Source of the DNA: Methanomassiliicoccales archaeon LGM-RCC1
Lineage (GTDB): Archaea > Thermoplasmatota > Thermoplasmata > Methanomassiliicoccales > Methanomethylophilaceae
Reading direction: 5' to 3'
Assembly: GCA_030168575.1 (NCBI GenBank)
Contig: CP115555.1
Location: 496,001-560,000 of the forward strand
DNA: 64,000 bases
The position numbers and the translations under genes were made by a program. The stretch's first letter is position 1. Each line of letters starts with the position of its first letter. The notes beneath the pieces were generated by a model. That model was not told where the DNA came from, did no database searches, and saw only the letters and a list, made by a program, of their open reading frames with translations. Shown in pieces: positions 802 through 48,388 of the stretch.

Positions 802-2457
802 ATGAGTGCGGATACTAAAAAGACCAGATATAGAAGTTCCAAAAGGAAAATCTGGGTACTTAATCATCTGTTTAACAACCTGTATCGTCCAGCAATGCTG
901 AATGAATACATGAGCGATAATAACCGCATAAGATTCGACAATTTTGGAATCGTTATCGACGATGCAAACGATCAAGAAATTCCTATTCTCAACTCAATTA
1001 ATGGAATGGTTGGATGCTATAAAGTCCAAATAGGCGGATCTGAATCGAAATCTACGCTTTATTCGAACTTTCTTGATATTTGCAATTCATTGGAAGATGA
1101 TGGGTTGATAAAATCCAAATCGCGCAGGAGTAACCAATACAGATTCTTCCCTATAGAAAGTTCTGAAACCTTTGTAAAATATCTGAACATACTATATTCG
1201 AATAATGACGACAAGGTCGAGAATCACATCTTGAAGAATTCTGTTTATTATCATCTGATGGTCAACAGACAACTGGTTCTGAATCTGCTCAAATCAAATG
1301 ATATCAAAATCAGAATGGATTAGGTTTACGACGGCGACCTTTATTCTATGACGGTACCAACGTTAGGAAGATTCCGTAAAATATTCGAAATGAGCAATGA
1401 AATGGATCTATTCATTAGTAAATTGATGGATGTCAAAAATACTCTTTCAAATTCCCCGAGCGGGACTAAGGATATCGTTGAAAAACTCTTCTCCAATCAG
1501 AAAAAAGTCAAATGTATCGAGAAGAAAAAACTCGGTAAGAAGGAATGCTCGGAGATGTTATCATCCATTTCAAACCTGGTAGAACACCTAAGGAAAATAA
1601 AGGATGAAATGGAAAGCCTTTCAGAATTGGCTCTTGAAAAAGAATGTCTTTCTAATGAAACGTATAATCCTCTAGATTGGTTCATAACTGATCAAAAACT
1701 ATTCAGACGTGAAGCATTCTGGGAAGAACTGATCTTATCAGAAGATGAGAGAAAAATTCTCGAATCCGCAACCATCATAAAATGCGGCAAAGATGGATAG
1801 GAACAATCTGATGACAGGATTGTCCGTGATTTGTTCCTAGATTGTTACCCGCTCTATCTGGAAAACAACTTCATCCTACCAATATTCTGTCTTTTGGAGA
1901 TCTCGCCAACAGCAGCTGAAAAGATTCTGATTAACAATATGGATGAATTCTCAATCAAAGGGAAAACATTCGTTCTGAATTATCGCACAGACACGTACAG
2001 TATACTGTTGGATCGGTTGCTGCTTCTTACTCTCAACGATGTATTGAACGGCAGAACACTGTACGACTTTAAGGAGCATATGATAAGATACCAAAACAAC
2101 AAAACCAGCCTATATCGTATCGGTGAGTTGTATCATAACGGAACAATCTATCCCGCATTGCTAACATTCAGATTGAACAGAGGACGTTATCTGGCCTTCC
2201 GGCACAGCTTGCCTGATACGAATGATCAACTGCCGTTTCTCATTTCGTTTGAAATAATGGAGATGGAAGAACTAGATCGTCCAGGCGGACTGCCCATCGA
2301 GATTCCGTCGATCGCATATATCGGTAACGATAGACCGCCATTATGGTTCTATGAATTGCTCAATGATTACATCACAGACGGAAGGAACCAGGCCCCACCC
2401 TATCTAGAAAATCTTCTCAATTTGTGGATGTTGGATGATCTTCCAAAAAGAAAATGA
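802..2457 (+). CDS. protein of unknown function crossed by two in-frame TAG codons
   Basis: Three consecutive open stretches lie in one frame and are separated only by TAG codons at 1321-1323 and 1798-1800. The frame ends at TGA. Reading through both gives about 550 residues with amber positions near 174 and 333. The second stretch would lack any start for 24 nt and the third has only a TTG 30 nt in, so three independent genes in the same frame are unlikely. The N-terminal part is basic and may be DNA-binding (residues 1-130). The middle is a Lys/Glu-rich, coiled-coil-like segment. The C-terminal 200 residues are a compact, hydrophobic-rich domain. No family is recognised. The DNA is AT-rich compared with the core genes. 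A pseudogene with two nonsense mutations is the alternative. Confidence 0.6.
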
Positions 2458-6270: not shown

Positions 6271-7437
6271 ATGGCATACGATAAGGAATCCAAAACCCGG
6301 GAACAAATCGACATCTGGCAGTCGGTCAAGGAAGGACACATCGAGAATCCGCCAGTAAAAGGATGGTTGTTTTATTACGACGAGACCAACAACTTCAGGA
6401 GGTTCAGGTTCGATCCGGAGAAACAATCGGGTTACAATGTCGAGAGGGCATTAACATACGATTTCATTCTCGGCGGCATAGCGTTCGATCCCGGGAAGAA
6501 ACCCGATGCTGAAGAACTGATGGACAGGCTAGGGATTCAGAAGGAGAACGAACTGAAAGCGGGTTCGATTCTGAAGAATAGGGATTTCATGAAGGATATC
6601 GGCCTGAAGAGGGTCCACACGTTCCTGGAATGGATGCTGGATTCCGGCGTCATCGTCCACTTCTCCACATTGAACAACCTGTACTGGTCAATCATAGATC
6701 TGGTCGACGAGGCCTTGATTACCGAGGCGGGCCGTGTGATGATGCCTTTCCACAAGATAATGAAAGACCAGCTGTTCTACTTCGTCATGGGCCACCTGGA
6801 CGAGATGACGTACATCCTCCAGGGTTACGGATTCCCCAATTTGGACAACGAGGACATAGATCCATTCGCTAGGGCGGTATCGGATTTCATCCAAGAGAAC
6901 AGCTACGATGATACGCCCGAATTATTCTATCTCGAGGCAACCAGGCAGCTTATAAAGGATCTGAGGAGAGAAAAGGAGATGACCTTCCTCTCAGGCGGGG
7001 AGCCGGGCGTGATGATCGATTCCTACGAATGGGAATATGTGGATGCCATGCAGAAAACACCCAATGCTTTCCATCGTTTCGACCACGAGAGTACGGTGGA
7101 AAAGAGTCTGAGGAAGTACGATCTGCTGGAAGACGGGAAACCGTACGAAGGATACGAGTTTGTCGATTCCAAGGAGAACAGGTTTGTTCAGATTAGCGAT
7201 GTGTTCGTCGGGATACTAAGCGAACTGTTTCATCACACGGATTCCCTAATGCTTGAAGGAAGGGATTCGATCCCCAGGCCGACGAAGGAACAGGCATACG
7301 GGATACATCTCCTGAAGAAGGTTATAACGAAGTCGGAAGAGATATCCATTTACCTTCAGAGACATCTGTGCCCAGAGAAATACAGGGAGTTTAGATACGA
7401 GTTCCTTGAGATCGTTGATTATTTCTGGAAAGAATAA
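6271..7437 (+). CDS. DUF3800 protein, long form
   Basis: 388 residues. The N-terminal GWLFYYDETNNFRRF motif with its conserved Asp-Glu, an FILGGIAF strand, an ELKAGSI motif and a C-terminal FVDSKENRFVQISDVFVG motif are the hallmarks of DUF3800. The family is predicted to have an RNase H-like fold with Asp/Glu catalytic residues and is common in mobile and defence regions. The ATG follows the stop of the exonuclease-like gene with no gap, so co-translation is expected. A short, amber-interrupted DUF3800 relative occurs at 42198-42977. Confidence 0.75.
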   Translation: MAYDKESKTREQIDIWQSVKEGHIENPPVKGWLFYYDETNNFRRFRFDPEKQSGYNVERALTYDFILGGIAFDPGKKPDAEELMDRLGIQKENELKAGSILKNRDFMKDIGLKRVHTFLEWMLDSGVIVHFSTLNNLYWSIIDLVDEALITEAGRVMMPFHKIMKDQLFYFVMGHLDEMTYILQGYGFPNLDNEDIDPFARAVSDFIQENSYDDTPELFYLEATRQLIKDLRREKEMTFLSGGEPGVMIDSYEWEYVDAMQKTPNAFHRFDHESTVEKSLRKYDLLEDGKPYEGYEFVDSKENRFVQISDVFVGILSELFHHTDSLMLEGRDSIPRPTKEQAYGIHLLKKVITKSEEISIYLQRHLCPEKYREFRYEFLEIVDYFWKE

Positions 7438-7495: not shown

Positions 7496-8572
7496 GTGAA
7501 GACTAGATTTAATGTGGTGCCCGACGATACTATTCGTCAAGAATTCAAAAAGGCAAGAGGTCGCGTGATGCGTGACCCCGATGTCAGAGAGTACCTTCAC
7601 AGAAGACCTATCGTTTGGACGAAGTTACGGATTGCATTCTGGAGAATCAACCCTACAGCAAGCAAAAATCTCAAGGAAATCTAGGATAGGAGTGTCAAAG
7701 GATACAAACGTCTTGTAGATGCGCAGATACAGTCTCTCGATGACACAGTAGAGCAATACGCGAAATCACACAGTACACCCTATTATTCTGAAGAAAAACC
7801 TGCCCTGCTATGCAAATACATGCCCAAAGGCCATGCAGTAGACAATATACTCAACTCGGTGACTAAATTTGGAAGCGTGGGCGAGTACAGAAGAGATGAT
7901 CATATGGAATGCAAGCTCCCGATTGCACCAGAGATGAATACTAATGATTTTTTGGATGTGGTTAGAGCACGGATCCTAAAAGCAATGCTCGAGGAGCAGA
8001 ATTTGGATATAATCTCCATTTGGAACAGTGTCCAGGATGCGATGGAAAACAATGTTTTCATCGGTAGTTTCTCGGATGGTAATAATCCGGAATATATGTG
8101 GCACGAATACGCTAAGGACGATGGCGTCTGTGTTTGGTTTGAACCGGATTATACAAAGTTGAAACTGGTCGTTTATTCCGACTATCTCGCGAAAGCGGAT
8201 GATTTGAGAGAAAAATACGGTCAGATGATGCTTCGTATAGCAAAGGAAGGTTTCGACTCAATCAAGGATGATCTCGAATCTTCGACCAAGGAAATCATCA
8301 ATCTGTCCCACATGTCTTTTTACACGAAGAAACCGGAATTTGACAAAGAAACAGAATGGAGGCAACTGGTTTCTTGCAGCGATCCTTCTAGAATCAAATT
8401 GGATGAGGATGGTTACAAATTCATCGTGGAATCAATCCCGGGACGCATTGTTAAAGTCGAATCCCGTTTGCCAGAAAAGGAACATGGTTGGCTCATAGCG
8501 GGGATCGATTCAAAAATTGAGGTCACACAAACAAAATCTACAACTCCCTCTGATACAATTGTCTTCCCTTAG
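7496..8572 (+). CDS. DUF2971 family protein with an in-frame TAG
   Basis: A GTG start after GAGGGG opens a frame that meets TAG at 7682-7684 (codon 63) and then continues in the same frame for almost 300 codons. The part after the TAG has the DUF2971 signature: LLCKYMPKGHAVDNILNSV, VFIGSFSDGN, YMWHEYAKDDGVCVWF and KETEWRQL. No start codon follows the TAG until ATG at 7820, which would lie within the first conserved motif, so the family needs sequence from before that ATG. The annotated end is also a TAG (8570-8572); seven more codons lead to TGA at 8594. Either the ambers are read through or the gene is damaged. It is AT-rich and sits directly before the restriction-modification genes. Confidence 0.65.
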
Positions 8573-8696
8573 TGGAATGATTTCGATAGGGTATGAAATA
8601 CAAACACTCTTTGCTGTAATTGGAGGGTTTTGAGAGACGCATCAATAGGGTTCTTTGAATAGATTTATTTGTTAAATTCAATATTCCTTTTTGTTC

Positions 8697-9827
8697 ATGA
8701 GTTCGTTTAGATTTGCAGATTTGTTTGCCGGATGCGGGGGGCTCAGTCTTGGAATGGAACAAGCTGGATTCAAATTAGTATTTGCCAGTGACATAGATCC
8801 CGTCTGCTCTAACACATTCATAAAAAATCGTAACATTTCAGAAGAACAGATGTTTATAGGCGACATTGCAGATCTAAATGACCACATCGAGGACTACTCG
8901 GATTATCTCAAAGACATTGACCTAGTATGTGGTGGTCCGCCTTGTCAAGGTTTTTCAATGGCTAACCGTCAGCGTTTGATTGATGATCCCCGCAATATCC
9001 TATACAAAGAATATTTGAGATTCCTGGACCACGTTCGTCCCAAATATTTCATCATGGAAAATGTAAAAGGGATGTTGAACAAAATTGGAGAAATTTTCGA
9101 GGACATAAAAAACATTCTTGGAAATGAGTATGACGTATCTTACTCTGTTTTCAACGCCAAAGATTACGGTGTCCCCCAGAACAGGGAGAGGCTTATCGTT
9201 ATTGGAAATAGAATGGGTATATCTTCAGATTCAATCATCGCAGATATACGTTCCAAGTCAGATTCGTGCCCTCGTTTTGTTCTCCGCGATGCATTAAAAG
9301 GTCTCCCCCCATTGATGCCCAATAGACAGAAAAACAGCAGTTCCATTGAAAATGACGAAGTCGGATACTTTGCCAGAGATTACAAGTATGAAATGGACGA
9401 GTTCTATAGATTCATTAATGGGGACAGGAAGATTGAATCCCTATATAATCATAAGAACCGGTACAACAACAATCGCGACATTGAGATATTTACGAGGTTG
9501 CCCCAGGGGGCAAATTCGCTTCACCCTAGTATCAAAGATATAATGCCTTACGCATCACGTAACGACATTTTCAAGGACAAATATTTCAAACTCAAAGAGG
9601 ACGAAGTCTGCAAGACTATTACCTCCCACATGAAGTTTGATTGTAATATGTACATTCATCCCACACAAGCTAGAGGGCTATCCCCCCGTGAGGCCGCCCG
9701 CATCCAAACCTTCCCCGACGATTTTATCTTCTACGGGGCACAAAACAGTTGGTATAAGCAAGCTGGAAACGCCGTGCCAGTAAAATTGGCCCAAGCTATC
9801 GGAGAAGAGGTCATTAAACATTTATGA
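8697..9827 (+). CDS. DNA cytosine-5 methyltransferase 1
   Basis: 376 residues with every C5-methyltransferase landmark: FAGCGGLSLGMEQAG (motif I, AdoMet binding), GGPPCQGFSMANRQ (motif IV, catalytic Cys near residue 84), MENVKGM (motif VI), PQNRERLIVIG (motif VIII) and KQAGNAVPVKLA (motif X). The variable target-recognition region lies between VIII and X. The ATG at 8697 was chosen over the TTG at 8691. Its last codons overlap the ATG of the second methyltransferase (ATGA), so the two are coupled. Two neighbouring C5 enzymes with one nuclease suggest an asymmetric target whose strands are modified separately. Confidence 0.93.
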   Translation: MSSFRFADLFAGCGGLSLGMEQAGFKLVFASDIDPVCSNTFIKNRNISEEQMFIGDIADLNDHIEDYSDYLKDIDLVCGGPPCQGFSMANRQRLIDDPRNILYKEYLRFLDHVRPKYFIMENVKGMLNKIGEIFEDIKNILGNEYDVSYSVFNAKDYGVPQNRERLIVIGNRMGISSDSIIADIRSKSDSCPRFVLRDALKGLPPLMPNRQKNSSSIENDEVGYFARDYKYEMDEFYRFINGDRKIESLYNHKNRYNNNRDIEIFTRLPQGANSLHPSIKDIMPYASRNDIFKDKYFKLKEDEVCKTITSHMKFDCNMYIHPTQARGLSPREAARIQTFPDDFIFYGAQNSWYKQAGNAVPVKLAQAIGEEVIKHL

Positions 9828-10894
9828 AACAATTAGAACTTTTTTCCGGTGTGGGTGGTTTCCGCCAGGCCTCAGAATTATTGGAAATCGACTTCGGAGT
9901 GGAATTCAAAACTGTTGGGTATTCAGAGATAGACGTCAACGCTAAGAGGACATACAACAGTGTCTTCGATACAAATGGCGAGATGGATATCGGCGATATA
10001 GTTGAATTCAACAGCGACGAATCGAACATTAAGAGCATCCCAGATATCAGTTTGATAACAGGCGGATTTCCTTGTCAGCCATTCAGTATGATGGGTAAGC
10101 AGAAAGGTTTTGATGATGATCGTGGCAACCTTTTCTTCGAAATAATGAAAATCGTACGTATCAAGAAGCCCCGTTACATTCTTCTTGAAAACGTAAAAAA
10201 TCTCAAAACACACGATTCGGGAGATACCCTCAGCGTCATTATCAGCACTCTTGAATCCGCAAACTATAGGGTAAAAATGGATATTTTCAACACGTCTGAT
10301 TACGGTCTTGCTCAAACTCGCAATAGGATCTACATATTCGCGTATCCCAAATCTATGGGAGACATTGATTTTTCAAACGGTGTCGTGAAAACTACTTTCG
10401 ATAAAATTGAGAGAAAGACCTCGATAATGAAGCAAGATAACACACACGAGGTGCTTTCTAAGTCAGTTGATGCCAAATATTTCTTATCCGAAAGGATAAA
10501 ACCGACTATTCTCGCAAATGGATCGAAGAATTTCCAATCCCGTTCGGAGATCAATCAACTAATTGCCCGTCCGTTAACCGCTACAATGGCTAAAATGCAC
10601 AGGGCCTGCCAAGACAATTATTTCAGTACGGGATATATCGAATCAGACAATCCCGAGGAATATGTTAAAAAACAATTCTCCAAAGAAGAGTTGGCAAAAC
10701 AGCCAATTAGGAGAATAACTCCTAGAGAAGCTTTTGCTTTACAAGGTTTTGACTCTACTTACTTCGATAAGGTTGAAACATCGGGAGTTTCTGATTGTCA
10801 GTTATACAAACAAGCAGGAAATGCGGTCAGCGTAAACACCGTCTATGCAATATTATATTATCTTTTCGTGCATTTACATCTAACTGATGAGTGA
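9824..10894 (+). CDS. DNA cytosine-5 methyltransferase 2
   Basis: 356 residues with motif I LELFSGVGGFRQASE, motif IV GGFPCQPFSMMGKQKGF (catalytic Cys near residue 83), motif VI LLENVKNL, motif VIII AQTRNRIYIFA and motif X KQAGNAVSVNTV. It is too diverged from the first methyltransferase to be a recent duplicate, which fits two different target strands. It overlaps its upstream partner by 4 nt and its downstream nuclease by 8 nt; all three form one operon. Confidence 0.93.
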   Translation: MKQLELFSGVGGFRQASELLEIDFGVEFKTVGYSEIDVNAKRTYNSVFDTNGEMDIGDIVEFNSDESNIKSIPDISLITGGFPCQPFSMMGKQKGFDDDRGNLFFEIMKIVRIKKPRYILLENVKNLKTHDSGDTLSVIISTLESANYRVKMDIFNTSDYGLAQTRNRIYIFAYPKSMGDIDFSNGVVKTTFDKIERKTSIMKQDNTHEVLSKSVDAKYFLSERIKPTILANGSKNFQSRSEINQLIARPLTATMAKMHRACQDNYFSTGYIESDNPEEYVKKQFSKEELAKQPIRRITPREAFALQGFDSTYFDKVETSGVSDCQLYKQAGNAVSVNTVYAILYYLFVHLHLTDE

Positions 10895-11969
10895 TATTTC
10901 AAACCCTTCACAATCCATAGAAATCTACGACCAGATTATTGGCTTAAAAAAGCTGAGTGGCGCTGATCTAGGGCACGAGTCGACTCATCAAACCCATATC
11001 GGTTTAATCAATAGTATCTTTAAGTTTTTTGAGGATGACGATGAGGCCGAATCGATTCTGCTGTACGATCAGATGTCAAAAACACTTCCAGCGAGTTATC
11101 ACAGAATTCAGCCGTCTGGGGGAGGATCTGGACGTAGCATCGGTCTTCGTACAGGCATAAACCAAGATGCTAGTTTGCTGAAGACAATACGTGAAATCTG
11201 TCGGAAGAAGGATTGCGGATGGTATCTTATTTGGTTCAGTCTGATTGATAAAACGCCCGTTTTTATACTATTCGATTCGGAGTCGGATATATACAAATGT
11301 CTTGTTAAAAACGGAATTAACCCCGATAAACGCATCTCGAAGGGCATATCTTCTGACGATAATCGTTATAGGACGATTCTTTCCTGCATTAATCCGATTT
11401 TGACTGAGTATCTGGGCGGAATGGACAAAGAGTTGGAAATCGCTGTTCAGACAGGTAATCAAAAAACCCGCTTCACTCACAAGAACTACGTAAAAGCATC
11501 AAAGAGGATGCAAGAAATCGGTCGTGAAGGCGAGGAAATAATCAACCGGTATTTCCAAGAATTACGTACTCAGAAGAAAATAGATGAATACGAATGGAAG
11601 AACAAAGATGGTGAAAGCGGCGAACCGTATGACTTTATCGTAAAAAAATCGGATGAAATCGTATATCTCGACGTAAAGACCACGGGGTACGATTTCTCAC
11701 GCCCAATGGTCTTCAGTAAGCAGGAAATAGATTTTGTTGCCAATAGCGGTAGCAATTATGCCATTTACAGGGTATATCGCGGCAACAATGCCAAGTATTG
11801 CTTAAGAGTGTGTTCCAATTCAAAAGAGAATTTCCAGAAAATCGACACGATATTGAAGGAATGTGCTGAACGCTTGAAGTTGTTAACAACACTTGAAACA
11901 GCCAAACTTACCATAGATCCAAACAGCAACGACCTATTGTTCGACGAGGAAATCAATCTTGATTTTTGA
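10887..11969 (+). CDS. putative type II restriction endonuclease, PD-(D/E)XK fold
   Basis: 360 residues. The C-terminal part has GEPYDFIV followed by IVYLDVKTTG (residues about 243-264), the Asp ... Asp-x-Lys pattern of a PD-(D/E)XK nuclease, close to the DUF3883 type of domain. The following FSKQEIDFV matches that domain's last helix. The N-terminal 180 residues (with GGGSGRS and WYLIWFSL) are probably the DNA-recognition part. The gene overlaps the second methyltransferase by 8 nt, the usual arrangement of a restriction gene, so the modification enzymes are made first. Confidence 0.75.
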   Translation: MSDISNPSQSIEIYDQIIGLKKLSGADLGHESTHQTHIGLINSIFKFFEDDDEAESILLYDQMSKTLPASYHRIQPSGGGSGRSIGLRTGINQDASLLKTIREICRKKDCGWYLIWFSLIDKTPVFILFDSESDIYKCLVKNGINPDKRISKGISSDDNRYRTILSCINPILTEYLGGMDKELEIAVQTGNQKTRFTHKNYVKASKRMQEIGREGEEIINRYFQELRTQKKIDEYEWKNKDGESGEPYDFIVKKSDEIVYLDVKTTGYDFSRPMVFSKQEIDFVANSGSNYAIYRVYRGNNAKYCLRVCSNSKENFQKIDTILKECAERLKLLTTLETAKLTIDPNSNDLLFDEEINLDF

Positions 11970-12030: not shown

Positions 12031-12603
12031 TCAAAACAATCTGGTCTGGTTGAAATCCTCTTCTCCAGATTCATAAACAATCCGGGAATCTGCTATAACC
12101 TCTTTGCTGACGCATACATTCCATGCACGCATCCGTGAATGCCATTTTTTGTGTCTAACAAACGCATCCCAGTCCAGTTGATAGATTGCTTTCAACCGGT
12201 AATTGCGATCCAGGCGGCATATCACCAGATAATCGAACATCTTCTCGTCTGGCACGTTTTCGTCCGGTGTATGGAGCCCGTAAATTACACCCGTGACTGA
12301 GCCGGTTGTGGTTTTGATACTGTACATTTTTCCGTTACGGCCGATGGCATCGACGTTTTTGGTTCCTGTAGCCGCAGGGGTTAGGTTGGGAAGTGTCGTA
12401 TCTTTTTTGTACTGTTCCATTACAAGATATTCTCCCAAATCCCCCACAACGTTATTGGTACGGATTACGTTACGTTCCTTCAAAAGAGCTATGCAGTCGC
12501 CGTAAGCTTCTATTAACTCCCCCGTTTCCAAATTCGAGAGATCAAGTGACATCGTAAATGTAAGCTGCAGCATTGTATTTAGCTGCGCTGCTAAAGAGGT
12601 CAC
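12031..12603 (-). CDS. DUF6998-like protein, putative nuclease-fold
   Basis: 190 residues from a GTG preceded by TAGGAT. The core reads GDLGEYLVMEQY, then TKNVDAIGRNGKMYSIKTTTG: a Glu, an Asp and a Lys spaced as in PD-(D/E)XK-like domains found near restriction genes. An alternative start is the ATG at 12573. It converges with the restriction endonuclease gene (61-bp gap) and may be an accessory nuclease or specificity factor. The function is inferred from fold-like motifs and place only. Confidence 0.55.
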   Translation of the reverse strand: MTSLAAQLNTMLQLTFTMSLDLSNLETGELIEAYGDCIALLKERNVIRTNNVVGDLGEYLVMEQYKKDTTLPNLTPAATGTKNVDAIGRNGKMYSIKTTTGSVTGVIYGLHTPDENVPDEKMFDYLVICRLDRNYRLKAIYQLDWDAFVRHKKWHSRMRAWNVCVSKEVIADSRIVYESGEEDFNQTRLF

Positions 12604-12628
12604 GGATTGATCCTACAATGAGGCAGTC

Positions 12629-13005
12629 ATGTGTTTTTTCTATTCTATGAATCATCAAGAATCCGTTCAGTATTACATCGTAAAACCAACTAATTATATT
12701 CCCAACTCCTATTTTCTATGCTCGATGGACGAATTCCTCGAGATTTCAAAGCTGATAAAGGTCCAGGGCATCTCCTGGGCGGTGTTCATCAAAAGCGAAG
12801 CGGAGAAGCTCGGTCCTGAAAGGGTACGGCTACGGATACAGAGTGCTTGGATGGATGTACGAGAAAGGAGAAGGAATTCAACAGGATCTGGGCATGGCCA
12901 TAGACATGTACAAATGTGCAGTCGAACACGGATGCGAGGAGGCCGAGAAAGAGCTAAGAAGACTGGTTCCATGCAGATATGAAAACTCTTCGGGAGATGC
13001 TTGAT
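12629..13005 (+). pseudogene. decayed Sel1-repeat protein fragment
   Basis: The frame that covers about 12820-13005 encodes one good Sel1 repeat: YRVLGWMYEKGEG, then DLGMAIDMYKCAVEHG and CEEAEKELRRL, ending at a TGA. The plausible N-terminal part (from 12629 or the ATG at 12724, with CSMDEFLEIS) lies in another frame, so at least one frameshift separates the two. Sel1 repeats are protein-interaction solenoids that normally occur in longer arrays. I read this as a remnant left beside the defence genes; a short functional gene is less likely. Confidence 0.4.
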
Positions 13006-13090
13006 AGAGCGTATCATAAAGGGCTGAAATACGGAAAAGAAAAGATGATGAGAATATTCTGACAACGATACAATTCCAGTTACAAATCTT

Positions 13091-15658
13091 TCAATCCCAA
13101 CCCATTTTCGAGAATATCTCCCTGATATCTTCGTCAGATGAAGAGAGCACCCCCTCCAGTTTACCTGTCTCGATGGCCTCTTTCATTATGGTTTCCTTGA
13201 TCTTCAGACGATTGTAGATCTCATCATCCAATGATGTGGAATGCCCACTGCTGATGCCGTCCAACATCATCCCGCCGTAAGTCACCTTCATGAAGCGGTG
13301 CTGCGTGTACTGATCATCAGACAGACCCAATCTGTGTATGCGGTCCTTGGACTGGAGCAAGTGGACCAGATTATAGCTGTACTCGTAGTAAATGGTGTCA
13401 TGGCATACAGTATGTAATGAAACCGATTCTGCCAAAGTATGTGGATTCGTGATGAGCACAGAGAACCTGCCACCCTTGAAATCATTGATGATCCTGGAGC
13501 GCTCATGCACCGGGACACTACCATCGATGCTCTCACAGGAGATGCCCTCTGCGCCCAGAAGATCCTTGATGTTGTATATGGATTTCCTGAAGATGCACCA
13601 TACTATGACGGTTTTGCCCTCCCTGACGAGCATCGATACCTGATCTATGCATAATCTGGTCTTTGAGGTAACACCAATCTTTGAGATCACCGGAGCCAAA
13701 TCCTTAAGGGATGGCAGCAGCGTTGCCATGACATCCGGATTGTAGTCATCGGTTGATTCATCCTTGAAGCTCTGCACCAATTCGTCAGGGACCTCGTCCT
13801 TCAACAGCATACTCGGATCCGATTCCGCCTGGAGAAGGCGGATGATCCATGTCAGCGGATTGCCTGCACAGACTTCCTTTATCCTGCTGTAGAGCAGATT
13901 CTCCTCATTGGTTGATTCCACAAGTATCTGGATATCCGGATTCTCCGGCGGCACCCCCAAATCATCCTTACTCGTCCTGCAGTAGAACGGTTGGATCTTG
14001 TCATTGATGTCCTGTATCACAGATTGAGTGGGGTTCCGAAGAGAAGAAAGATCGTATTTGAAATATGAACCGTACTCCTTAGGGAAGAGGATATGCAGTA
14101 TGCTGTAGAGATCTGAATACGAATTGGGCATAGGAGTACCTGTGAGGACCAACGTGCGCGTCGATTCCTCCGCTACCATCCTGGATGCCGCAGACCTCTT
14201 GGTGCTCCAGCCCTTGATGTAGTGACCCTCATCGAAGACCAGCAGGCATTTTGATATGAGGTACTCATTGAGGGCGGATGCGTATTTCCAGAGGCTCTGA
14301 TAGTTTATCAGAACCATATCCACGGTGGCATAGCTGTTGAAGAATGCCGCCAGAGAAGATGTTCCCTGATGATCTCTGGAATCGAACACTTTGGGTTCCC
14401 GACCGAACATCGCCCTGTACTCTGAAATCCAGGAATCGAATGAGTTTAATGGGCACACCACCACCATGTTCAGAAGATTGGATGTCGACTTGAGGTAAGC
14501 TAATACCCCCAGGACAGATGCTGTCTTTCCCGATCCCGGTACTGAGAAGTTACCGGCCTTCATCATCGCATACATGAAGAATGAGTCCCACATCTGCTGA
14601 TCGTACAGATGCCTCACACTGGCCTCATCGACTGTCTTTTTGTATACGATGAACTCGTTCATGATGTTGTGAGCGCGGTTCTTGATATCAATCCCTAACT
14701 TCCTTCTCTTCTGTATGATGAGATCGTGTGAATTGATGTAATCCATCAACCTCTTGGAGACTGCTAACCTTATGTCCTTGTCATGGCAGTATGAGCCGAG
14801 GTTACTGATAATGCGCTGGAAGGAGATGTAATCTAGATCCTTGCGGAATACTATCTCCTTGTCGAATGATGATACGAACCTTTTGATATCAGACTTATAG
14901 ACGATTGCATAATTGGTTGGAGGATTGTCTAGACGGTTGTCGAGAACTATCGTGCTACCATCGAAATCCAGAAAGATGCAATTCTTCGTCTTATCGATCT
15001 CGTCTATCACAGCCACGCCGCCATGGGAATGGCTTTTAATCTCCTTCCAAACAACCTCTGAAGGTTTCTTGACGATCATTCCAGGCTTATCATCGTTCCA
15101 CATCCTCTCAAAATTCTCCTTATGTGAATCGAATGATTCGTATCTTCTGAAATCGAAGCTCTCGTAATTCTCTTCGATTGCCGCTGCTGTCTCATTATTG
15201 GATCCAAGCATCAGCATCGCATCGCCATCATAGCCCTCAGCATACCCCCATTTGTAATGGAAAATCCCCTTGCGAACTAGTGCAATCTTGATCTCGACCA
15301 CACCGGCTGAAATCAGATCCGTTAGAATCTGAAGAGAATCCTCCTCATCCAATGTGAGATCCTCGCGCAGACGGCTCAGGAACATGGGATCCAGATCCTC
15401 GAGACTCTTCTCTCCCTTGGTTATAGCATCGAAATCCTCTTTTTCGATGTCTTCAGACACGATGAGCCTATACTTCGAATCGGGCTTGTGTACGAACTCA
15501 ACGAGGCCCTGCGAGTATGCTGCCAAAGCTTTCGAAGAGAAATAGCAGGATACACGGTCGAACCTCTTTGCAGCTCTGAAGAACGGAATGTAGAAATCAT
15601 TCAGCAAATCCTTCTCGGAGGAGTCGTAGTATCCTTGCAACTCATCTAGTCTGGTCAT
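13091..15658 (-). CDS. PLD-domain SNF2-family helicase
   Basis: 855 residues. The N-terminal domain is PLD-like: FYIPFFRAAKRFDRVSCYFSS, an HxK pair in FHYKWG (near residue 133) and GSNNETA. A SNF2-type helicase follows, with Walker A GSGKTAS (near 373), DEGH (near 474), LTGTPMPNSYSDL, and a C-terminal RecA domain ending in QSKDRIHRLG (near 769). Such enzymes translocate on double-stranded DNA and occur in restriction and anti-phage systems. It is the last gene of a three-gene minus-strand operon and overlaps the ParB-like gene by 17 nt. It is neither DrmA nor a type III Res subunit by layout. Confidence 0.85.
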   Translation of the reverse strand: MTRLDELQGYYDSSEKDLLNDFYIPFFRAAKRFDRVSCYFSSKALAAYSQGLVEFVHKPDSKYRLIVSEDIEKEDFDAITKGEKSLEDLDPMFLSRLREDLTLDEEDSLQILTDLISAGVVEIKIALVRKGIFHYKWGYAEGYDGDAMLMLGSNNETAAAIEENYESFDFRRYESFDSHKENFERMWNDDKPGMIVKKPSEVVWKEIKSHSHGGVAVIDEIDKTKNCIFLDFDGSTIVLDNRLDNPPTNYAIVYKSDIKRFVSSFDKEIVFRKDLDYISFQRIISNLGSYCHDKDIRLAVSKRLMDYINSHDLIIQKRRKLGIDIKNRAHNIMNEFIVYKKTVDEASVRHLYDQQMWDSFFMYAMMKAGNFSVPGSGKTASVLGVLAYLKSTSNLLNMVVVCPLNSFDSWISEYRAMFGREPKVFDSRDHQGTSSLAAFFNSYATVDMVLINYQSLWKYASALNEYLISKCLLVFDEGHYIKGWSTKRSAASRMVAEESTRTLVLTGTPMPNSYSDLYSILHILFPKEYGSYFKYDLSSLRNPTQSVIQDINDKIQPFYCRTSKDDLGVPPENPDIQILVESTNEENLLYSRIKEVCAGNPLTWIIRLLQAESDPSMLLKDEVPDELVQSFKDESTDDYNPDVMATLLPSLKDLAPVISKIGVTSKTRLCIDQVSMLVREGKTVIVWCIFRKSIYNIKDLLGAEGISCESIDGSVPVHERSRIINDFKGGRFSVLITNPHTLAESVSLHTVCHDTIYYEYSYNLVHLLQSKDRIHRLGLSDDQYTQHRFMKVTYGGMMLDGISSGHSTSLDDEIYNRLKIKETIMKEAIETGKLEGVLSSSDEDIREIFSKMGWD

Positions 15659-16856
15659 TCAGCATCCCTAGACGTTCCTCTACCATCTTCTTGAGCTCTT
15701 CTAGCTTGTATCTTAGGTCGTCCTTTTGCTCGACGATCTCTATGGATGGTTTATCGATAGCTGAAATCTTCATCATCGCATTATCAACGAGGTTGAGCGG
15801 TGCATCTTTGGCATTCATGATAGAGATGCGGTCGAACTCAGAGTTCACCGTTTCCTCAATCTTTCTGGCTAGCTCCTCATCGTTCCTTATCTGCTCCGAT
15901 ATGACTGTCTGTGTGATCGGCTCGTCTATAGATGCTATCTTTTCAATGACCTCATCCACTATTTCCTGGGTGGCGGTAAGGTACTCCTCAGATAGCTCGC
16001 TCTCAGCAATTTTCTTAAATTTCCTAATCTGGCGAGTCATGTCGCCTGAACCGAAGAGAAGAGACGCGAACATATCCTTCTTGTACCTCTCCTTCACCTC
16101 ATCATCTGGTAGCTTCTTCAAAACGCTATGAATCTCATAAAGCGGCCCATTTATGTTGAGATTCGATGCTATGTAGAACTGCTTAGGGGCATTGACGAAT
16201 TCCAGGAAATCCACCATAAGATTGGCAATCTCCATCAGCTTACGAACCTCAGCCTCTTTCTGGTCGATGCAACGTGCGTACTCTTTAGGTTCGAAAGAAT
16301 GCCCATCCTCAATCAGATCCCTGTAAATCCCCACCAACTTGTTTATAGGGTCGTAGTCCACCTGCTTCTCCGTTCCATGCTGGAGTGTGAGCTCTAGCGA
16401 CTTTATCGCCTTCTTCCCGGTCTCGTCATCATATGTGTTGTCAAGGATGACAGCATCGAAGAAGCTGAACTTGGGATCCTCGAGGCTGAGCTCCCTCAGG
16501 CATGTGAAACGACGGTTACCATCGATGATCCTGCCGTCCCTTAGGACGACACCAGACTCCCTCTGTTCATACAGCTTGATATTGTTCTTAGTCTTCTTGA
16601 ATGCATCCAGATTGCTCTCTTTGATCATATCGTGGATGATGTTGTTGTACTCGGGATTGTTGATGTCTATCGCGCCATTTTCCGACTCGTACTTGCTCAT
16701 CCATGTGGCTATCCTATCATTCTGATCATTGTAGTAGAGCTGGTCCAGCTTAATCCTGTAGACCTGATAGGCCTTGGTCTGACCATCGATGGTCAATTTC
16801 TTGGAAAGATCGGTCTCTTGAACAATGTTCGAATTGGATAAATCTAGCTCGGTCAT
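15642..16856 (-). CDS. ParB/sulfiredoxin-fold protein
   Basis: 404 residues. An N-terminal VYRIKLDQLYYNDQNDRIA strand leads to VVLRDGRIIDGNRRFTCLRE (residues about 100-122), the signature loop of the ParB/DndB-like nucleotide-binding fold. The middle is helical and the last 60 residues are strongly charged and coiled-coil-like. It is the middle gene of the operon, one base after the MutH-like gene and overlapping the helicase gene. ParB-fold proteins in defence loci are CTPases/ATPases or DNA nickases; which applies here is not visible. Confidence 0.7.
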   Translation of the reverse strand: MTELDLSNSNIVQETDLSKKLTIDGQTKAYQVYRIKLDQLYYNDQNDRIATWMSKYESENGAIDINNPEYNNIIHDMIKESNLDAFKKTKNNIKLYEQRESGVVLRDGRIIDGNRRFTCLRELSLEDPKFSFFDAVILDNTYDDETGKKAIKSLELTLQHGTEKQVDYDPINKLVGIYRDLIEDGHSFEPKEYARCIDQKEAEVRKLMEIANLMVDFLEFVNAPKQFYIASNLNINGPLYEIHSVLKKLPDDEVKERYKKDMFASLLFGSGDMTRQIRKFKKIAESELSEEYLTATQEIVDEVIEKIASIDEPITQTVISEQIRNDEELARKIEETVNSEFDRISIMNAKDAPLNLVDNAMMKISAIDKPSIEIVEQKDDLRYKLEELKKMVEERLGMLNDQTR

Positions 16857-16857
16857 T

Positions 16858-19536
16858 TTATGCCCCTGTCATTTCATCTACGTACGCTTGATCGTCACGG
16901 AATATCTTCTCAGTGTACTTGCAATACCTTAAAGGCTTATGTTCATTTCTAAGCTCCCTGCCCAGATTTAAGCCGTATAGCTCATCGATTTTATCTACGA
17001 TATCGATTTCGTAATCACTGTCATCATTGCCGAGGGCGGTCAGCGTCATATCTACTATCGCCCCGTTGCGATTGAACTTCTCCATGCTGGTGAACACCTT
17101 ATGCTTGTGGATCTCACCGCACCTGAGGTTCCTGGAGAGACAGAGGATGTTCTCGTAGAACTCATCCTCGAACCCCTGTTCCTCCAGTTCATGCTGGAAT
17201 CCGCAATTATGGAGGAAATCCAATGTGAAGTAGCTGTCAGGTTCGAGGAAGGATGCTGCCGCAGACTGATAATCTGCAATCATGTCGTCTGTGACACCTG
17301 CTCCGTACAATTTGTCCGCAGTGACATATGTGTCCCCCTCGATGAGGTAATACCTGCGACTTTCCAGATAATCGTTGAATATGTTCATTACTGATTTGTT
17401 GTCCCTCATCTCATCGGTGATTGTCACGAAATCCTTGGAGAACAGTTCCTTATCGACGGCCTCACGTAACGACTGGTAGGCATCCGGATAAATTGAACCT
17501 TGAGCACTTCTGTACCCCAATCTATTAAGGTTATCGATGTTGTAATACGGATCGTTCTTAGTCTTATGTGTGCTCTTATCATCTGATTTTATGTCGAACT
17601 TGGATTCAGCCTTGAAAAACAGCTTACGGGCCACATCATGAGACATAATCCTGGGAGGACTCATCATCGTCGAGAGGTATTCGATTACCTCGTCTGAGAA
17701 CTTCGGCAGATTCATGTCGAAGTAATCCCCATTGGAGTACTGGGAGAACTTAGTCATGAGGGATCTTATGGATTGCTCCTTCATTCCGTATCTTTCTGAG
17801 TACATCCTGCAGAAATCGTTCTTGTTTATGCGACCGGTCTCCTGCAACAACGCTGTTATCTGATCAGGTATCGTCGCCTGACCGAAGCATACAGACGGAG
17901 ATGTCGGCAACACCATGTTCAATGAAGTAAGGATGCTGTTGTGCTTGTACTTACTCAAGAGCATGTACATCTCCTGCTCGTTCCTTATGTCATACTCATC
18001 ACAGATGGCCTTGGAATCGATGATTATCAATTGAGCAGAGATATAGGAATCGCTATACCTCCCCAGATCCAATCTCTTGAGGAACTCTGTGACCTGCTTC
18101 TCATCGAATGGGTAATACCTGACAGTCGTTGAATCCAAACGCAGGACATGGGTTCCGGGTTTGTCAGAACATAGCTTTATGTCCGCACTGTTCATCTTAC
18201 AGAGGGGAGCGTTTTTGAGACAATTCTTGTTTACGAACTCCTTGCAGAGCCTGCTGACCTCTGATATGTGCTTGGGTTTGCCAATTTTGGAAAGAACATA
18301 TGCGATGATGGAATCGTCGGAGAGATTCAATTTCCCATCCTCCAACTCGATATTGTTGTACATCATCGCGCGGAGCTTCCTCTTGAAGGTGTCAGTCTTC
18401 GTCGGATCGTTCAGCAGATCCTCCGGTTCCTTCCATCCCTTAGGATGCATGAGCTCAAGATAACGATAGGTCTCCTCGTCCACAGAATACAGGTCCATGA
18501 ACTGCTTTGCCTTGAACTTGTACAAACTGAAATCTGATGCCAATTCATCCTCTTTCGGTCTTGCCGAGAAGTACGCACGAATCCTCAACAATTCATCATC
18601 GACGTCTTTGTATCTTGACTCAAATGCCTCTGAATCCAAAGCGAAATAATCCCTCACGTTCTCCGGTGCCTTTTCCACCATCTTATGTACGGTCAGGACC
18701 CTGAGGGACAACCCATTGGAAGTACGTTCTACGACCCCTCTCTCCAGAAGCGATGCAATAACGCGGTCATAACTCTCATTGAACATCAATTTCGAATCTA
18801 AATTCTTCTTCAGCTTGAATGCGACTACCGGTCCATCTGCTTCTGATAGGACGCCTATGATGTTCTGTTCCAAAGTCTTGGGTGCCTCTTTGTTTCCAGT
18901 CGAAGACGGTGGTTGGATAACAGGAAGTGAGGATATGACCTTCCCAACATAATCGTTGTTCAACCAAAAGCTGTACTTCCTCTCTGCAGCGTTCTGTCCA
19001 TGAGGTCTCACATGTACCATTAGGTTGGCCGTCTTGGGGATGAAAGCATCGATATTGCCATCAACGATCTTCTGCCTGGTATCGTTCCATACGAACTCAG
19101 CCTTCTGGAGATCATCATCTGGCATTGACCAGAAAGCCGCATTCTTAAACGAGAAATCCCCGTCCTCCGAATCATCAGATGATGTAAACACCAAGAAAAG
19201 GAACCTACTGGTAATCTGCTTATAGAATTCACTCTGCTGCCATGACGAGTTGGTCATCTCCTCAAAATCAAATGCCGGAAATGACATACTCTCCTTGGGA
19301 GGAGAATCATCCTTCACACGGACGGTTCTTATGTAGGTTCCACTGGTTATGAGAGCGTAGTATAGATCTGGCGATGACTTCAACATCCTATCCGCCAAGG
19401 ACCTGAAATACCCTTTAGACTGCGGATTGAGATGCTCCTTGAGGATGGCCTCTATCTCAGAAGAAGACTTGCCGACGAATTGCCTGAGAAAATCTATTAT
19501 CGCCTCTTCAACTTCGATGCCACTTCCACCCATCAA
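16858..19536 (-). CDS. MutH/Sau3AI-like protein with winged-helix repeats
   Basis: 892 residues, ending in TAA. Residues about 60-190 match the MutH/Sau3AI nuclease domain pattern: PKESMSFPAFDFEEM, SWQQSEFYKQ, RFLFLVFTSS, FWSMPDDDL and FVWNDTRQKIVDG. At the place where active members carry Glu-x-Lys (as in G-I-E-L-K-T) this one reads G-T-Y-I-R-T, so the catalytic pair looks lost. The remaining 650 residues appear to be several winged-helix-like modules, probably for DNA or protein contacts. It is the first gene of the operon and divergent from vsr. Confidence 0.6.
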   Translation of the reverse strand: MMGGSGIEVEEAIIDFLRQFVGKSSSEIEAILKEHLNPQSKGYFRSLADRMLKSSPDLYYALITSGTYIRTVRVKDDSPPKESMSFPAFDFEEMTNSSWQQSEFYKQITSRFLFLVFTSSDDSEDGDFSFKNAAFWSMPDDDLQKAEFVWNDTRQKIVDGNIDAFIPKTANLMVHVRPHGQNAAERKYSFWLNNDYVGKVISSLPVIQPPSSTGNKEAPKTLEQNIIGVLSEADGPVVAFKLKKNLDSKLMFNESYDRVIASLLERGVVERTSNGLSLRVLTVHKMVEKAPENVRDYFALDSEAFESRYKDVDDELLRIRAYFSARPKEDELASDFSLYKFKAKQFMDLYSVDEETYRYLELMHPKGWKEPEDLLNDPTKTDTFKRKLRAMMYNNIELEDGKLNLSDDSIIAYVLSKIGKPKHISEVSRLCKEFVNKNCLKNAPLCKMNSADIKLCSDKPGTHVLRLDSTTVRYYPFDEKQVTEFLKRLDLGRYSDSYISAQLIIIDSKAICDEYDIRNEQEMYMLLSKYKHNSILTSLNMVLPTSPSVCFGQATIPDQITALLQETGRINKNDFCRMYSERYGMKEQSIRSLMTKFSQYSNGDYFDMNLPKFSDEVIEYLSTMMSPPRIMSHDVARKLFFKAESKFDIKSDDKSTHKTKNDPYYNIDNLNRLGYRSAQGSIYPDAYQSLREAVDKELFSKDFVTITDEMRDNKSVMNIFNDYLESRRYYLIEGDTYVTADKLYGAGVTDDMIADYQSAAASFLEPDSYFTLDFLHNCGFQHELEEQGFEDEFYENILCLSRNLRCGEIHKHKVFTSMEKFNRNGAIVDMTLTALGNDDSDYEIDIVDKIDELYGLNLGRELRNEHKPLRYCKYTEKIFRDDQAYVDEMTGA

Positions 19537-21322: not shown

Positions 21323-21414
21323 TGAATCGACCTCTTTCGACTTTATCACGGTTCGAATTACATGCAAACACGAGGGTTATAGGATTCTTATCCTTCCACT
21401 ACCATACCCTCTCC

Positions 21415-44775: not shown

Positions 44776-45990
44776 ATGAAGGTATTGTTGTTGGACATGA
44801 CTCACGGCGGACAGATCCTAGCGCCATTATTCAAGGCAGAGGGCCACGATGTCGCCGTAGCGGACGTTTACAAGATCGCTACGGAGTCCATGCTGGAATC
44901 GCTCAGGTCCTTAGGGGCGGAAGTCTATGTGGGCAATCCTGCGCCTGGCCATTACGACCTCGTCTCCATGCCTTGTCACTGCCCGGACATCTTCCTGGAG
45001 GGCTGCACATACGATCAGCGCATCTGGTATTCGCAGGCCGTCAACCGTTTCATGGATGACAGGAGGTTCAGGATCGAGGTCACCGGAGTGAAGGGGAAGA
45101 CGACCACATGTTACCTCATCTCCCACATACTGGCCAACAGCGGAAGGAAGGTCTATCTCAGGTCATCGAGGGGCTCCGGCCCTTACAAGCCCGAAGGCCA
45201 CGACGTCAAGGAGCTGAAGAGCATCGCCCCGCCCTACCTGTTGGACCTCCCAGAGGGAGACTACGATGTGATGGTATGCGAGGTATCCCTCGGAGGATCC
45301 GCGAAGGCGGACATCGCATGCATCACCAACCTCCTGGAGGACTACGGCATCGCGAAGAAGACCCGCCGTGCGGAAGAGGCCAAGAAGGACATCCTCACGG
45401 ACAAGGTCAACATCGTCCTGGAATCAGAGAAGGATATCTGGGCGAAGTACGGGAAACCCCTCACGACGGTCAAGAGCCGTGTAACGGTCAAGGAGACGCC
45501 GAAGTTCGGAGAGCCCCTGAAGCTCGTCGTGGATTACAACGGAAAGCACGATGTGGAGCTGGACGGCTCATATCTAGGTCTGCAGTACGTGGAGGCCATC
45601 GACATGGCCCTGTGCGTCTGCGACGCGATGAACATCGACTCAGAGAGCGTGTTCAGGGCATTGTCTACATTCAAAGGAATCCCTGGAAGGGGAGAGGTCA
45701 CCGTCAGGGACGGCATCAGATACGTCATCGAACGCAACCCCGGCATCTCCCACATGTCCGTCAACCGCACCCTGAAGACGCTCGATGCGATGGGATGCCT
45801 GGACGGCGCATTGGTGGTCATCGATCCGGTGTCCAAGAAGGTCTGCGACAAGCTGGACCGCGACCTCATAGAGGGAGTCGTCGACAGCTACGGAGTAGGG
45901 CTCATCGTCACTCCGGGCGACGGAACCGAGCCGGAGATTCCCGCGGGCACCAAACTGGTGATCCGCATGACCAAGGAAGGGTACCAATGA
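44776..45990 (+). CDS. cfbE: coenzyme F430 synthetase CfbE, Mur-ligase-like
   Basis: 404 residues. The Mur-ligase P-loop GVKGKTTTCYLISHI (near residue 98), LPEGDYDVMVCEVSLGG and FKGIPGRGEV are present. The enzyme uses ATP to close the carbocyclic ring in the last step of F430 formation. GGAGGAG precedes the ATG. Its stop overlaps the ATG of cfbD. Confidence 0.92.
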   Translation: MKVLLLDMTHGGQILAPLFKAEGHDVAVADVYKIATESMLESLRSLGAEVYVGNPAPGHYDLVSMPCHCPDIFLEGCTYDQRIWYSQAVNRFMDDRRFRIEVTGVKGKTTTCYLISHILANSGRKVYLRSSRGSGPYKPEGHDVKELKSIAPPYLLDLPEGDYDVMVCEVSLGGSAKADIACITNLLEDYGIAKKTRRAEEAKKDILTDKVNIVLESEKDIWAKYGKPLTTVKSRVTVKETPKFGEPLKLVVDYNGKHDVELDGSYLGLQYVEAIDMALCVCDAMNIDSESVFRALSTFKGIPGRGEVTVRDGIRYVIERNPGISHMSVNRTLKTLDAMGCLDGALVVIDPVSKKVCDKLDRDLIEGVVDSYGVGLIVTPGDGTEPEIPAGTKLVIRMTKEGYQ

Positions 45991-47060
45991 GCGGAGTGTT
46001 CCACCCCCGTCCCAACCCCATAGTGGCCGCGATGTACACGGCCAGGGACATGAACGTGGACGTCGTGGTGATGCATGGCCCCGCAGGATGCTCCTTCATG
46101 GCCTCCAGGCCGATGGAGAACGCAGGGGTCAGGGTGGTGACCTCATCTATGAAGGACAACGACCTCATCTTCGGCGGAGGGCCCTCGTTGGAGAAGGCGC
46201 TCACCGAGGCGAAGCAGAGGTTCAATCCTAAGACGATGGCGGTAATAGGCACATGTGCCAGCACTATCATCGGAGATGATATTTCAGCAGTCATCGGCAG
46301 GGTCGATCTCGGAGATACGATCTGTTTCCCGATAGACTGCCACGGCTGCATGGACAGCAATACCGAGGGTGCGATCCGCGCCCTTAAGGCCGGAGCGAAG
46401 GCAGGGATAATCCCCTCCGATGAGGCGGACCGTCAGTCCAAGCTCCTTAAGGCCGCTACCGATCTCGAGAAGAAGAAAGGTATGGCCAGCAAGACCTACC
46501 TTTCACCTGCCGGAAGCCCCACAAAGCTGTCCGTATGCAAGAGGATAGAATCGACTCTCAAGGCCGGCGGCAAGGTCGCCGTCGTCATGGTGGCCAAGAA
46601 GGAACTGGCCTACCGCTTCGCGGACATGTTCAGCGCCGTCAACGACGCAAGGAAGAAACTGGGCGGAGAGACGTTCTTCGTCGCCAACCTCGACAGGGAG
46701 AAGGGACTGCCCCGCATCAGGGGATACTGCGATGACATCCTGAGGGACCTAGAGGCCCAGGATGTCAAGCTGGACAGGATCGTCGGCGGGCTCGACGAGT
46801 ACGCCGTCGTCGGGGACGAGATGGGAGAGGCCGTTAAAGGATTCGGACCCGATCTCACCGTTGTATTGGGTATCTGCCATGCATATCCGTTCCTGGACGA
46901 GAACTGCGTCCTCGTGACGGATCAGCCCCGTGAGCTGCAGAACTACATCCAGGAAGGATTGGCAGCAGTCGGAGAGGTCGGCAGCCACGGTCTCGTGATG
47001 GGAACGAAGAACATAATCACGCTGGAGACCGCTCAGACGCTCAGAGAGCTGGTAGGATGA
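45987..47060 (+). CDS. cfbD: Ni-sirohydrochlorin a,c-diamide reductive cyclase, NifD-like subunit CfbD
   Basis: 357 residues from the ATG at 45987. VVMHGPAGCSFMASRP, VIGTCASTIIGDD and DCHGCMDSNT carry the cluster-binding Cys of the NifD/BchN-like fold. The same frame is open upstream into cfbE to 45108, but that is a shadow. CfbD with CfbC makes the six-electron reduction and lactam closure of the Ni-tetrapyrrole. It overlaps cfbB by 4 nt. Confidence 0.92.
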   Translation: MSGVFHPRPNPIVAAMYTARDMNVDVVVMHGPAGCSFMASRPMENAGVRVVTSSMKDNDLIFGGGPSLEKALTEAKQRFNPKTMAVIGTCASTIIGDDISAVIGRVDLGDTICFPIDCHGCMDSNTEGAIRALKAGAKAGIIPSDEADRQSKLLKAATDLEKKKGMASKTYLSPAGSPTKLSVCKRIESTLKAGGKVAVVMVAKKELAYRFADMFSAVNDARKKLGGETFFVANLDREKGLPRIRGYCDDILRDLEAQDVKLDRIVGGLDEYAVVGDEMGEAVKGFGPDLTVVLGICHAYPFLDENCVLVTDQPRELQNYIQEGLAAVGEVGSHGLVMGTKNIITLETAQTLRELVG

Positions 47061-48388
47061 AGGGATTCGTCATTGCCGGTACCGGCAGCGGTGTCGGGAA
47101 GACATCCATCACCACAGGGATAATGTCCCTGCTCTCCAAGAAGTACAAGGTCCAGGGCTTCAAGGCCGGACCGGATTTCATCGATCCCATGTATCATTCT
47201 GCGGCCACCGGGAGGCCGTGCAGGAACCTCGATTCCTTCCTCATGGACGACGACACCATACGCAATCTCGTCGGCTTCGCATCCAAGGATGCAGACGTAT
47301 GCGTCGTGGAGGGTGTGAGGGGACTTTACGAGGGGTTCGCGGGAGATTCCGACCTCGGTTCCACCGCATACATCGCCAAGCTCCTCGACTTGCCCGTCGT
47401 GCTGGTCATGGACGCGGGTTCCCTGACTCGCAGCACCGCTGCGATCCTCAACGGTTTCAAGGCCTTCGATCCCGACGTGAAGATCGCCGGTGTGATCCTG
47501 AACAAGGTGTCCGGACCTCAGCACACAGATAAGCTGGACGTCACCATGTCCACCTACTGCAAGGATGTTACCGTCGTCGGCAAGATCCGCAAGGACAAGG
47601 AGAACACCCTGGGCCAGAGGCATCTAGGCCTGCACACGATAGTGGATCCCGCCAAGAGCGGCATAGCTTCCCTTGAGAGGCTGGTCGATACCGTCGACCT
47701 CGATGCTTTGATGGGGATAGCAGAGTCCACCGATCCCGATCTCCCGACCGAATCACCGTATGTCCAGAGGGATGTCGGCGCCCGCATCGCCGTTCCCTAT
47801 GACGATGCCTATTGCTTCTACTACAGGGAGAACATCGAGTGCCTGGAAGCCTCCGGATTCAAGACAGAGAGGTTCAGCCCCATCGCCGGGGACATCCTTC
47901 CAGATGCTGACGCGGTCTACCTCGGCGGAGGATACCCTGAGCTGCATGCACAGGCCATCTCTGAGAACAGGGATTTCATGGACGGTCTGAGGAACATGTC
48001 CCTCGAGAACAAGCCCATCCTGGGCGAGTGCGGCGGGCTGATGTCCATGTGCAGGAACATTATTGACCCGGAGGGCAGAAGCCATCCGATGGCAGGAATC
48101 TTCGAATGCGATTCGGTCTTTGTCAACAAGCGCCACGGCCCCACCTATGTCATGGCCGAGGCCAATGCGAACAACCCTCTTTTCAAGGGCAGCGTTCGCG
48201 GTCACGAGTACCATTATTCCGAGGTGTCCGCCTCAGGATCCGAGACCTTCGGCTTCGATGTGAAGAGAGGGCTCGGAATAGTGGACAAGAAGGACGGCCT
48301 GGTAGTCAGGAGATCCATGGGTTCCTACATGCACCAGCATGCCCTATCCTCTGACGATTGGACCAAGGGTTTCGTCGATAATCTCTGA
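47057..48388 (+). CDS. cfbB: Ni-sirohydrochlorin a,c-diamide synthase CfbB
   Basis: 443 residues of the CobB/CbiA family: an ATP-binding IAGTGSGVGKTSIT at the start, FKAGPDFIDPMYHS, VEGVRGLYEG, and a C-terminal glutaminase domain with GECGGLMSMC (catalytic Cys, near residue 325) and YHYSEVSA. It amidates the a and c side chains using glutamine. The gene closes the cfb operon; the order here is A-C-E-D-B. Confidence 0.93.
   Translation: MKGFVIAGTGSGVGKTSITTGIMSLLSKKYKVQGFKAGPDFIDPMYHSAATGRPCRNLDSFLMDDDTIRNLVGFASKDADVCVVEGVRGLYEGFAGDSDLGSTAYIAKLLDLPVVLVMDAGSLTRSTAAILNGFKAFDPDVKIAGVILNKVSGPQHTDKLDVTMSTYCKDVTVVGKIRKDKENTLGQRHLGLHTIVDPAKSGIASLERLVDTVDLDALMGIAESTDPDLPTESPYVQRDVGARIAVPYDDAYCFYYRENIECLEASGFKTERFSPIAGDILPDADAVYLGGGYPELHAQAISENRDFMDGLRNMSLENKPILGECGGLMSMCRNIIDPEGRSHPMAGIFECDSVFVNKRHGPTYVMAEANANNPLFKGSVRGHEYHYSEVSASGSETFGFDVKRGLGIVDKKDGLVVRRSMGSYMHQHALSSDDWTKGFVDNL

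Follow-up and report, generated by a model that had tools for sequence, protein, structure and literature searches.

A gene with two in-frame TAG codons, probably read as pyrrolysine, on a strain-variable island of a Methanomassiliicoccales archaeon

An archaeal genetic code in which all TAG codons stand for pyrrolysine (Pyl) was reportedly described in Science in 2025, and the idea considered here is the same, namely that TAG is sense genome-wide. Within the order Methanomassiliicoccales, widespread Pyl decoding has already been published (PMC4153887, PMC5011839). In Ca. Methanomethylophilus alvus, Borrel et al. (2014) found that TAG makes up 1.6% of stops and, from the shared BLASTP hits of neighbouring pieces, identified 16 Pyl proteins besides the methyltransferases; half of the in-frame-TAG genes outside methylamine metabolism have homologues without a TAG (PMC4153887). 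In ISO4-H5, 46 genes with in-frame amber codons were reported, including 17 hypothetical proteins, 10 insertion sequence elements, and Cas3 (PMC5011839). The mechanism is already known, and the frame described below is a case where such genes are expected. The earlier note on this DNA suggested a novel gene; judging from the parts of these two papers that we draw on, its novelty is smaller than claimed, since in-frame-TAG genes had been published for the order.

The DNA analysed here, called the window, is a stretch of 64,000 nucleotides from a 1.664-Mb single-contig genome, here called the host genome, whose Pyl cluster and methylamine genes point to the Methanomassiliicoccales. The features on which the argument depends are as follows.

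731 to 765: inverted repeat TAGTTTTGT-N17-ACAAAACTA, 10-base arms with flanking C/G; putative operator
772 to 778, + strand: TTTATAA, 30 bases ahead of the ATG, picked out by eye; possible TATA-box-like element
802 to 2457, + strand: coding frame for 551 residues of an unnamed protein family; a single frame with two in-frame TAGs and with single-ORF relatives
997 to 1152, + strand: probable winged-helix DNA-binding domain, residues about 66-117, on several individually weak lines of evidence
1321 to 1323, + strand: in-frame TAG, codon 174, putative pyrrolysine, in a predicted beta-hairpin region and a non-conserved column
1798 to 1800, + strand: in-frame TAG, codon 333, putative pyrrolysine, in a variable region and a non-conserved column
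2455 to 2457, + strand: TGA stop, with a TAG directly after it
6271 to 7437: DUF3800 protein matching a PADLOC candidate; island
8691 to 9827: C5 DNA methylase; island
9824 to 10894: C5 DNA methylase; island
10887 to 11969: NOV_C-domain protein; island
13091 to 15658: SNF2-helicase protein; island

The frame begins with the ATG at 802, which is consistent with the N-termini of the relatives in the alignment, and runs for 552 codons in all, without TAA, TGA, or frameshift ahead of the terminal TGA. Reading the sequence confirmed that the three open stretches reported earlier share one frame, with TAGs at 1321 and 1798 and a TGA at the end. An open frame of this length is beyond chance: the longest frame free of TAA and TGA within 601-2600 has 569 codons, whereas in first-order Markov resamplings of the same DNA (n=2000) the longest such frame averaged 117 codons and never exceeded 265. 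Under the genome's codon model the gene scores -0.10, which is expected for AT-rich island DNA and also for weakly constrained DNA.

The host genome carries a complete pylTSBCD set. PylS is present (TIGR02367, 259.5 bits, over the cut-off), a separate N-terminal PylS domain has no match in the host genome (TIGR03912), tRNA-Pyl (CUA) sits just upstream of pylS, pylB follows pylS directly, and PylB, PylC, and PylD all score above the NCBIfam cut-offs. Stop usage was counted in 424 kb with 52.9% G+C, made up of the window and 18 stretches of 20 kb, in which ORFs were called by codon score; the gene at 802-2457 is itself not among the counted ORFs, since its codons are AT-rich and do not reach the threshold. 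The 284 called ORFs end in TGA (248), TAA (32), or TAG (4). After two of the four TAG stops, coding sequence continues for another 415 and 321 codons; the other two are followed by TAA or TGA within 12 codons. Genes that span a TAG in the host genome include mtmB (PF05369, 8.8e-209), a gene for an MttB-like methyltransferase fused to B12-binding domains (L038:1135-3366, + strand), with one in-frame TAG, and an IS605-type TnpB gene (L047:7438-8772, + strand), whose codon 123 is an in-frame TAG, so that a transposon protein is apparently read with Pyl. Upstream of the window lies a 449-codon frame with six TAGs (L020:11551-12900, - strand).

With a complete pyrrolysine set and a TAG that is hardly ever a stop, gene-specific readthrough is unneeded. 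The proposal that the gene needs amber readthrough is thus borne out insofar as the TAGs are very probably translated, but ordinary decoding fits better than a mechanism particular to this gene. Joining segments across TAG is by itself no proof: segments were also joined when TAA or TGA was read as sense (4 and 21 cases, respectively, versus 5 for TAG), presumably as adjacent genes lying in frame; as in the stop counts, the gene at 802-2457 falls below the codon-score threshold and does not enter these numbers. The case for 802-2457 therefore rests on the relatives of the protein.

Using the joined protein as the query, we matched 6 other genomes (147 searched, the own genome included), and a profile of seven sequences raised this to 8 of the 146 other genomes of the order. 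All eight relatives are single uninterrupted ORFs, and seven of them cover both TAG places, the exception being the distant relative in G026 (503 aa), whose match is limited to profile positions 349-434. Five relatives have 643, 583, 539, 590, and 660 aa, and two further ones of 600 and 625 aa were aligned from an inner ATG as 594 and 590. The TGAs flagged inside the G092 and G034 matches proved, by coordinate arithmetic, to be terminal stops, and both ORFs are uninterrupted. The G083 relative, at 32% identity over residues 88-396, crosses both TAGs, and segments 1, 2, and 3 each match one 643-aa relative, in order (E 1e-11, 1e-15, and 2e-25). Hence the uninterrupted homologues across both sites for which a search had been suggested do exist, as single ORFs in other genomes of the order; this supports one protein, as had been supposed, rather than a three-part one. 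The window protein has no match among the Pfam, NCBIfam, or PADLOC models.

Of six aligned relatives, four have a residue in the codon-174 column (T, D, G, and S) and four in the codon-333 column (K, D, E, and K), with gaps in the other two in each case; a TAG occurs at neither place in any relative. Since these residues vary, Pyl looks tolerated rather than catalytic at both positions. PylS was found in seven of the nine genomes examined, namely six of the eight that carry relatives and G080, which carries a DUF2971 relative (see below); it had no match in G084 and G026, which are draft genomes with a completeness of 82-83%. Outside the order, no relatives were found in phages, plasmids, or a genome contig collection, viral contigs gave no pattern match, and 389 genomes drawn from the phylum yielded solely members of the same family.

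These observations lead us to favour, at a probability of roughly 0.87, the reading of both TAGs as Pyl, which would give one protein of 551 aa from an intact, functional gene. The frame, the Pyl genes, the rarity of TAG stops, and the uninterrupted relatives are observed directly, as are the island and the repeat in five promoters of the family; the insertion of pyrrolysine at codons 174 and 333 is what we infer. The host would charge the CUA tRNA with pyrrolysine, the two TAGs would be translated as they are in its methylamine methyltransferases, and translation would terminate at the TGA. The TAGs, being at variable positions, would probably have arisen by drift and would be tolerated, given that this genome in effect uses TAG as sense.

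A decaying pseudogene, in which two nonsense mutations happen to be TAG, is very unlikely, despite this being an accessory gene that sits on a strain-variable island and is missing from G077, a genome of the same species, and despite about one third of the single-base routes to a stop giving TAG, so that two TAGs would occur by chance at about 0.11. The 552 codons contain neither TAA nor TGA nor frameshift, and a codon that is decoded in the host genome is no strong null mutation. The retention of conserved columns, defined as those conserved among the other six aligned sequences, bears on this in two ways. Past both TAGs, the window protein equals its intact relatives, with 18 of 30 such columns in segment 2 (0.60; relatives 0.52-0.69) and 29 of 43 in segment 3 (0.67; relatives 0.61-0.68), which argues against decay. 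In segment 1, it keeps few, 23 of 50 (0.46; relatives 0.59-0.67), which would suit a pseudogene and indicates that this segment diverged faster; none of the relatives found is close enough to be suited to measuring selection. That TAG terminates and that two or three separate proteins are made by re-initiation is extremely improbable: an ATG at 1348 and a TTG at 1831 do lie downstream of the TAGs, but no clear ribosome-binding site could be seen by eye ahead of either, all relatives found are single ORFs, and TAG accounts for only 4 of 284 stops.

Leaky readthrough, in which Pyl-tRNA competes with release factor to yield both a 173-residue truncated form and the full protein, with an output that tracks the methylamine supply, is unlikely. 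Competition at UAG is the model proposed for Pyl archaea in the part of PMC9499178 that we draw on, and the truncated form would contain the predicted winged helix (residues about 66-117). However, the near-absence of TAG stops suggests efficient suppression, an argument also made for Ca. M. alvus (PMC4153887), and the TAG places are unconserved among the relatives. The stronger version, in which the full-length regulator depends on Pyl and a cell low in Pyl, with little methylamine, makes the 173-residue winged-helix fragment instead, is very doubtful indeed; if true, it would tie the control of the island to the Pyl status of the cell and limit the gene to Pyl-coding hosts.

Returning to the single Pyl-containing protein, what it might do is suggested by its N-terminal part and its promoter. 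Winged-helix Pfam models are weakly matched by two of seven family members, though not by the window protein. Two AlphaFold2 models are of low confidence (mean pLDDT 59 and 62), the first placing a winged helix at residues about 66-117; the best fold match is to LmrR (9h9y, Z 8.2 over 87 residues, rmsd 3.3), no match to the second model exceeds Z 6.4, and Foldseek gave nothing at E<=0.001 against PDB and BFVD. In these models, no fold could be assigned beyond residue 140 or so. A WYL-type defence regulator was also considered: no WYL family appeared among the Pfam matches of the seven members at E<=1, and the fold searches were weak in this respect.

The pair AGTTT...AAACT, 28-29 bases apart, occurs upstream of five of the nine family members (those of the window, G083, G076, G039, and G100), at -72 to -70 in these promoters except for G039, at -54; when these five promoters were resampled, the pair at any spacing of 5-40 appeared in 0.35-1.6% of trials. 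The looser pattern TAGTTTT-N18-24-AAAACTA has one place in the whole host genome, which is the one here. The AGTTT...AAACT repeat is absent from the other four members. The G092 and G084 promoters contain another repeat, ATAAACCTGGGAG...; the long inverted repeat that this branch has before the start, upstream of L011:2151 and L012:2193 (ATAAACCTGGGAGCA...TGCTCCCAGGCTTAT in L011), differs from that of the window gene and is possibly a changed operator. The G034 and G026 promoters have no repeat of this kind, G034 having a weak 7-base repeat.

An inverted repeat common to the window gene and four relatives suggests autoregulation, and this putative operator is most simply read as the site at which the regulator would bind its own promoter. 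Taking the winged-helix matches and the promoter repeat together, we infer DNA binding and autoregulation, and give an autoregulated DNA-binding regulator about even odds; the winged-helix protein would recognize the inverted repeat upstream of its own start codon. That the protein acts in replication initiation or partition, instead of as a transcription regulator, is unlikely: PHROGs replication initiation families are matched by two of the nine members, at best E values of 0.0056 and 0.0086, but these matches are weak and probably due to winged-helix similarity alone; phage and plasmid records gave no match, and the nearly constant spacing between promoter repeat and start is in keeping with autoregulation.

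The gene lies in a segment that differs between strains. Against G077, of the same species, the flanks align collinearly at about 96-98%, dropping to 84-90% in short pieces by one breakpoint, and the exchanged segment comprises about 23.5 kb here, beginning 2.1 kb ahead of the window and reaching window position 21385. In its place, G077 carries about 22.5 kb in which blastn gave no match of at least 200 bases at E<=1e-20. As a DNA query, 12031-19536 found nothing in G077, G073, or G074; a control stretch, 44776-48388, matches G077 at 97%, so the absence of 12031-19536 from G077 is real, the control being one for G077 only. The island is mostly low in G+C and contains restriction-modification genes, and our gene would be carried on a swappable, defence-type island. 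The G076 relative is near GmrSD and ResIII-DUF3427 genes, but the scanned flanks of the other relatives are housekeeping or unremarkable (aconitase, NAD synthase, FecCD), so that an association with defence does not hold across the family. The island also holds a DUF2971-like gene (7496-8596, + strand) with in-frame TAGs at codons 63 and 359; its nearest DUF2971 relative, in G080 (L051:353-1537, - strand), has 47% identity and six in-frame TAGs. The earlier note's ranking of 802-2457 as the strongest multi-amber case in the window is right about its being multi-amber, but this second gene has two in-frame TAGs as well.

Gene callers that treat TAG as a stop would cut the gene at 802-2457 into three, and both the family and the promoter repeat would be missed. 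With two TAGs in an accessory, probable regulator, another two in the neighbouring DUF2971 gene, and six in the relative closest to the latter, TAG appears sense-like in the accessory genes of the order too, and the transfer of such genes would be restricted to TAG-decoding hosts.

Among regulators, the protein resembles the winged-helix PadR, MarR, and TrmB families through a weak fold and HMM similarity at residues about 10-138, and differs from them in having some 400 further residues without a recognized family. As to decoding, the host shares with Ca. M. alvus, as described in the parts of that paper used here, the Pyl gene set, the rarity of TAG stops (1.6% there, 1.4% or 4/284 here), and in-frame TAGs in genes outside methylamine metabolism; what differs is the presence here of two TAGs within one accessory gene (PMC4153887). 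ISO4-H5 likewise has in-frame amber genes, and relative to what we draw on from its description (PMC5011839), the analysis of conserved columns and of the promoter is what is added here.
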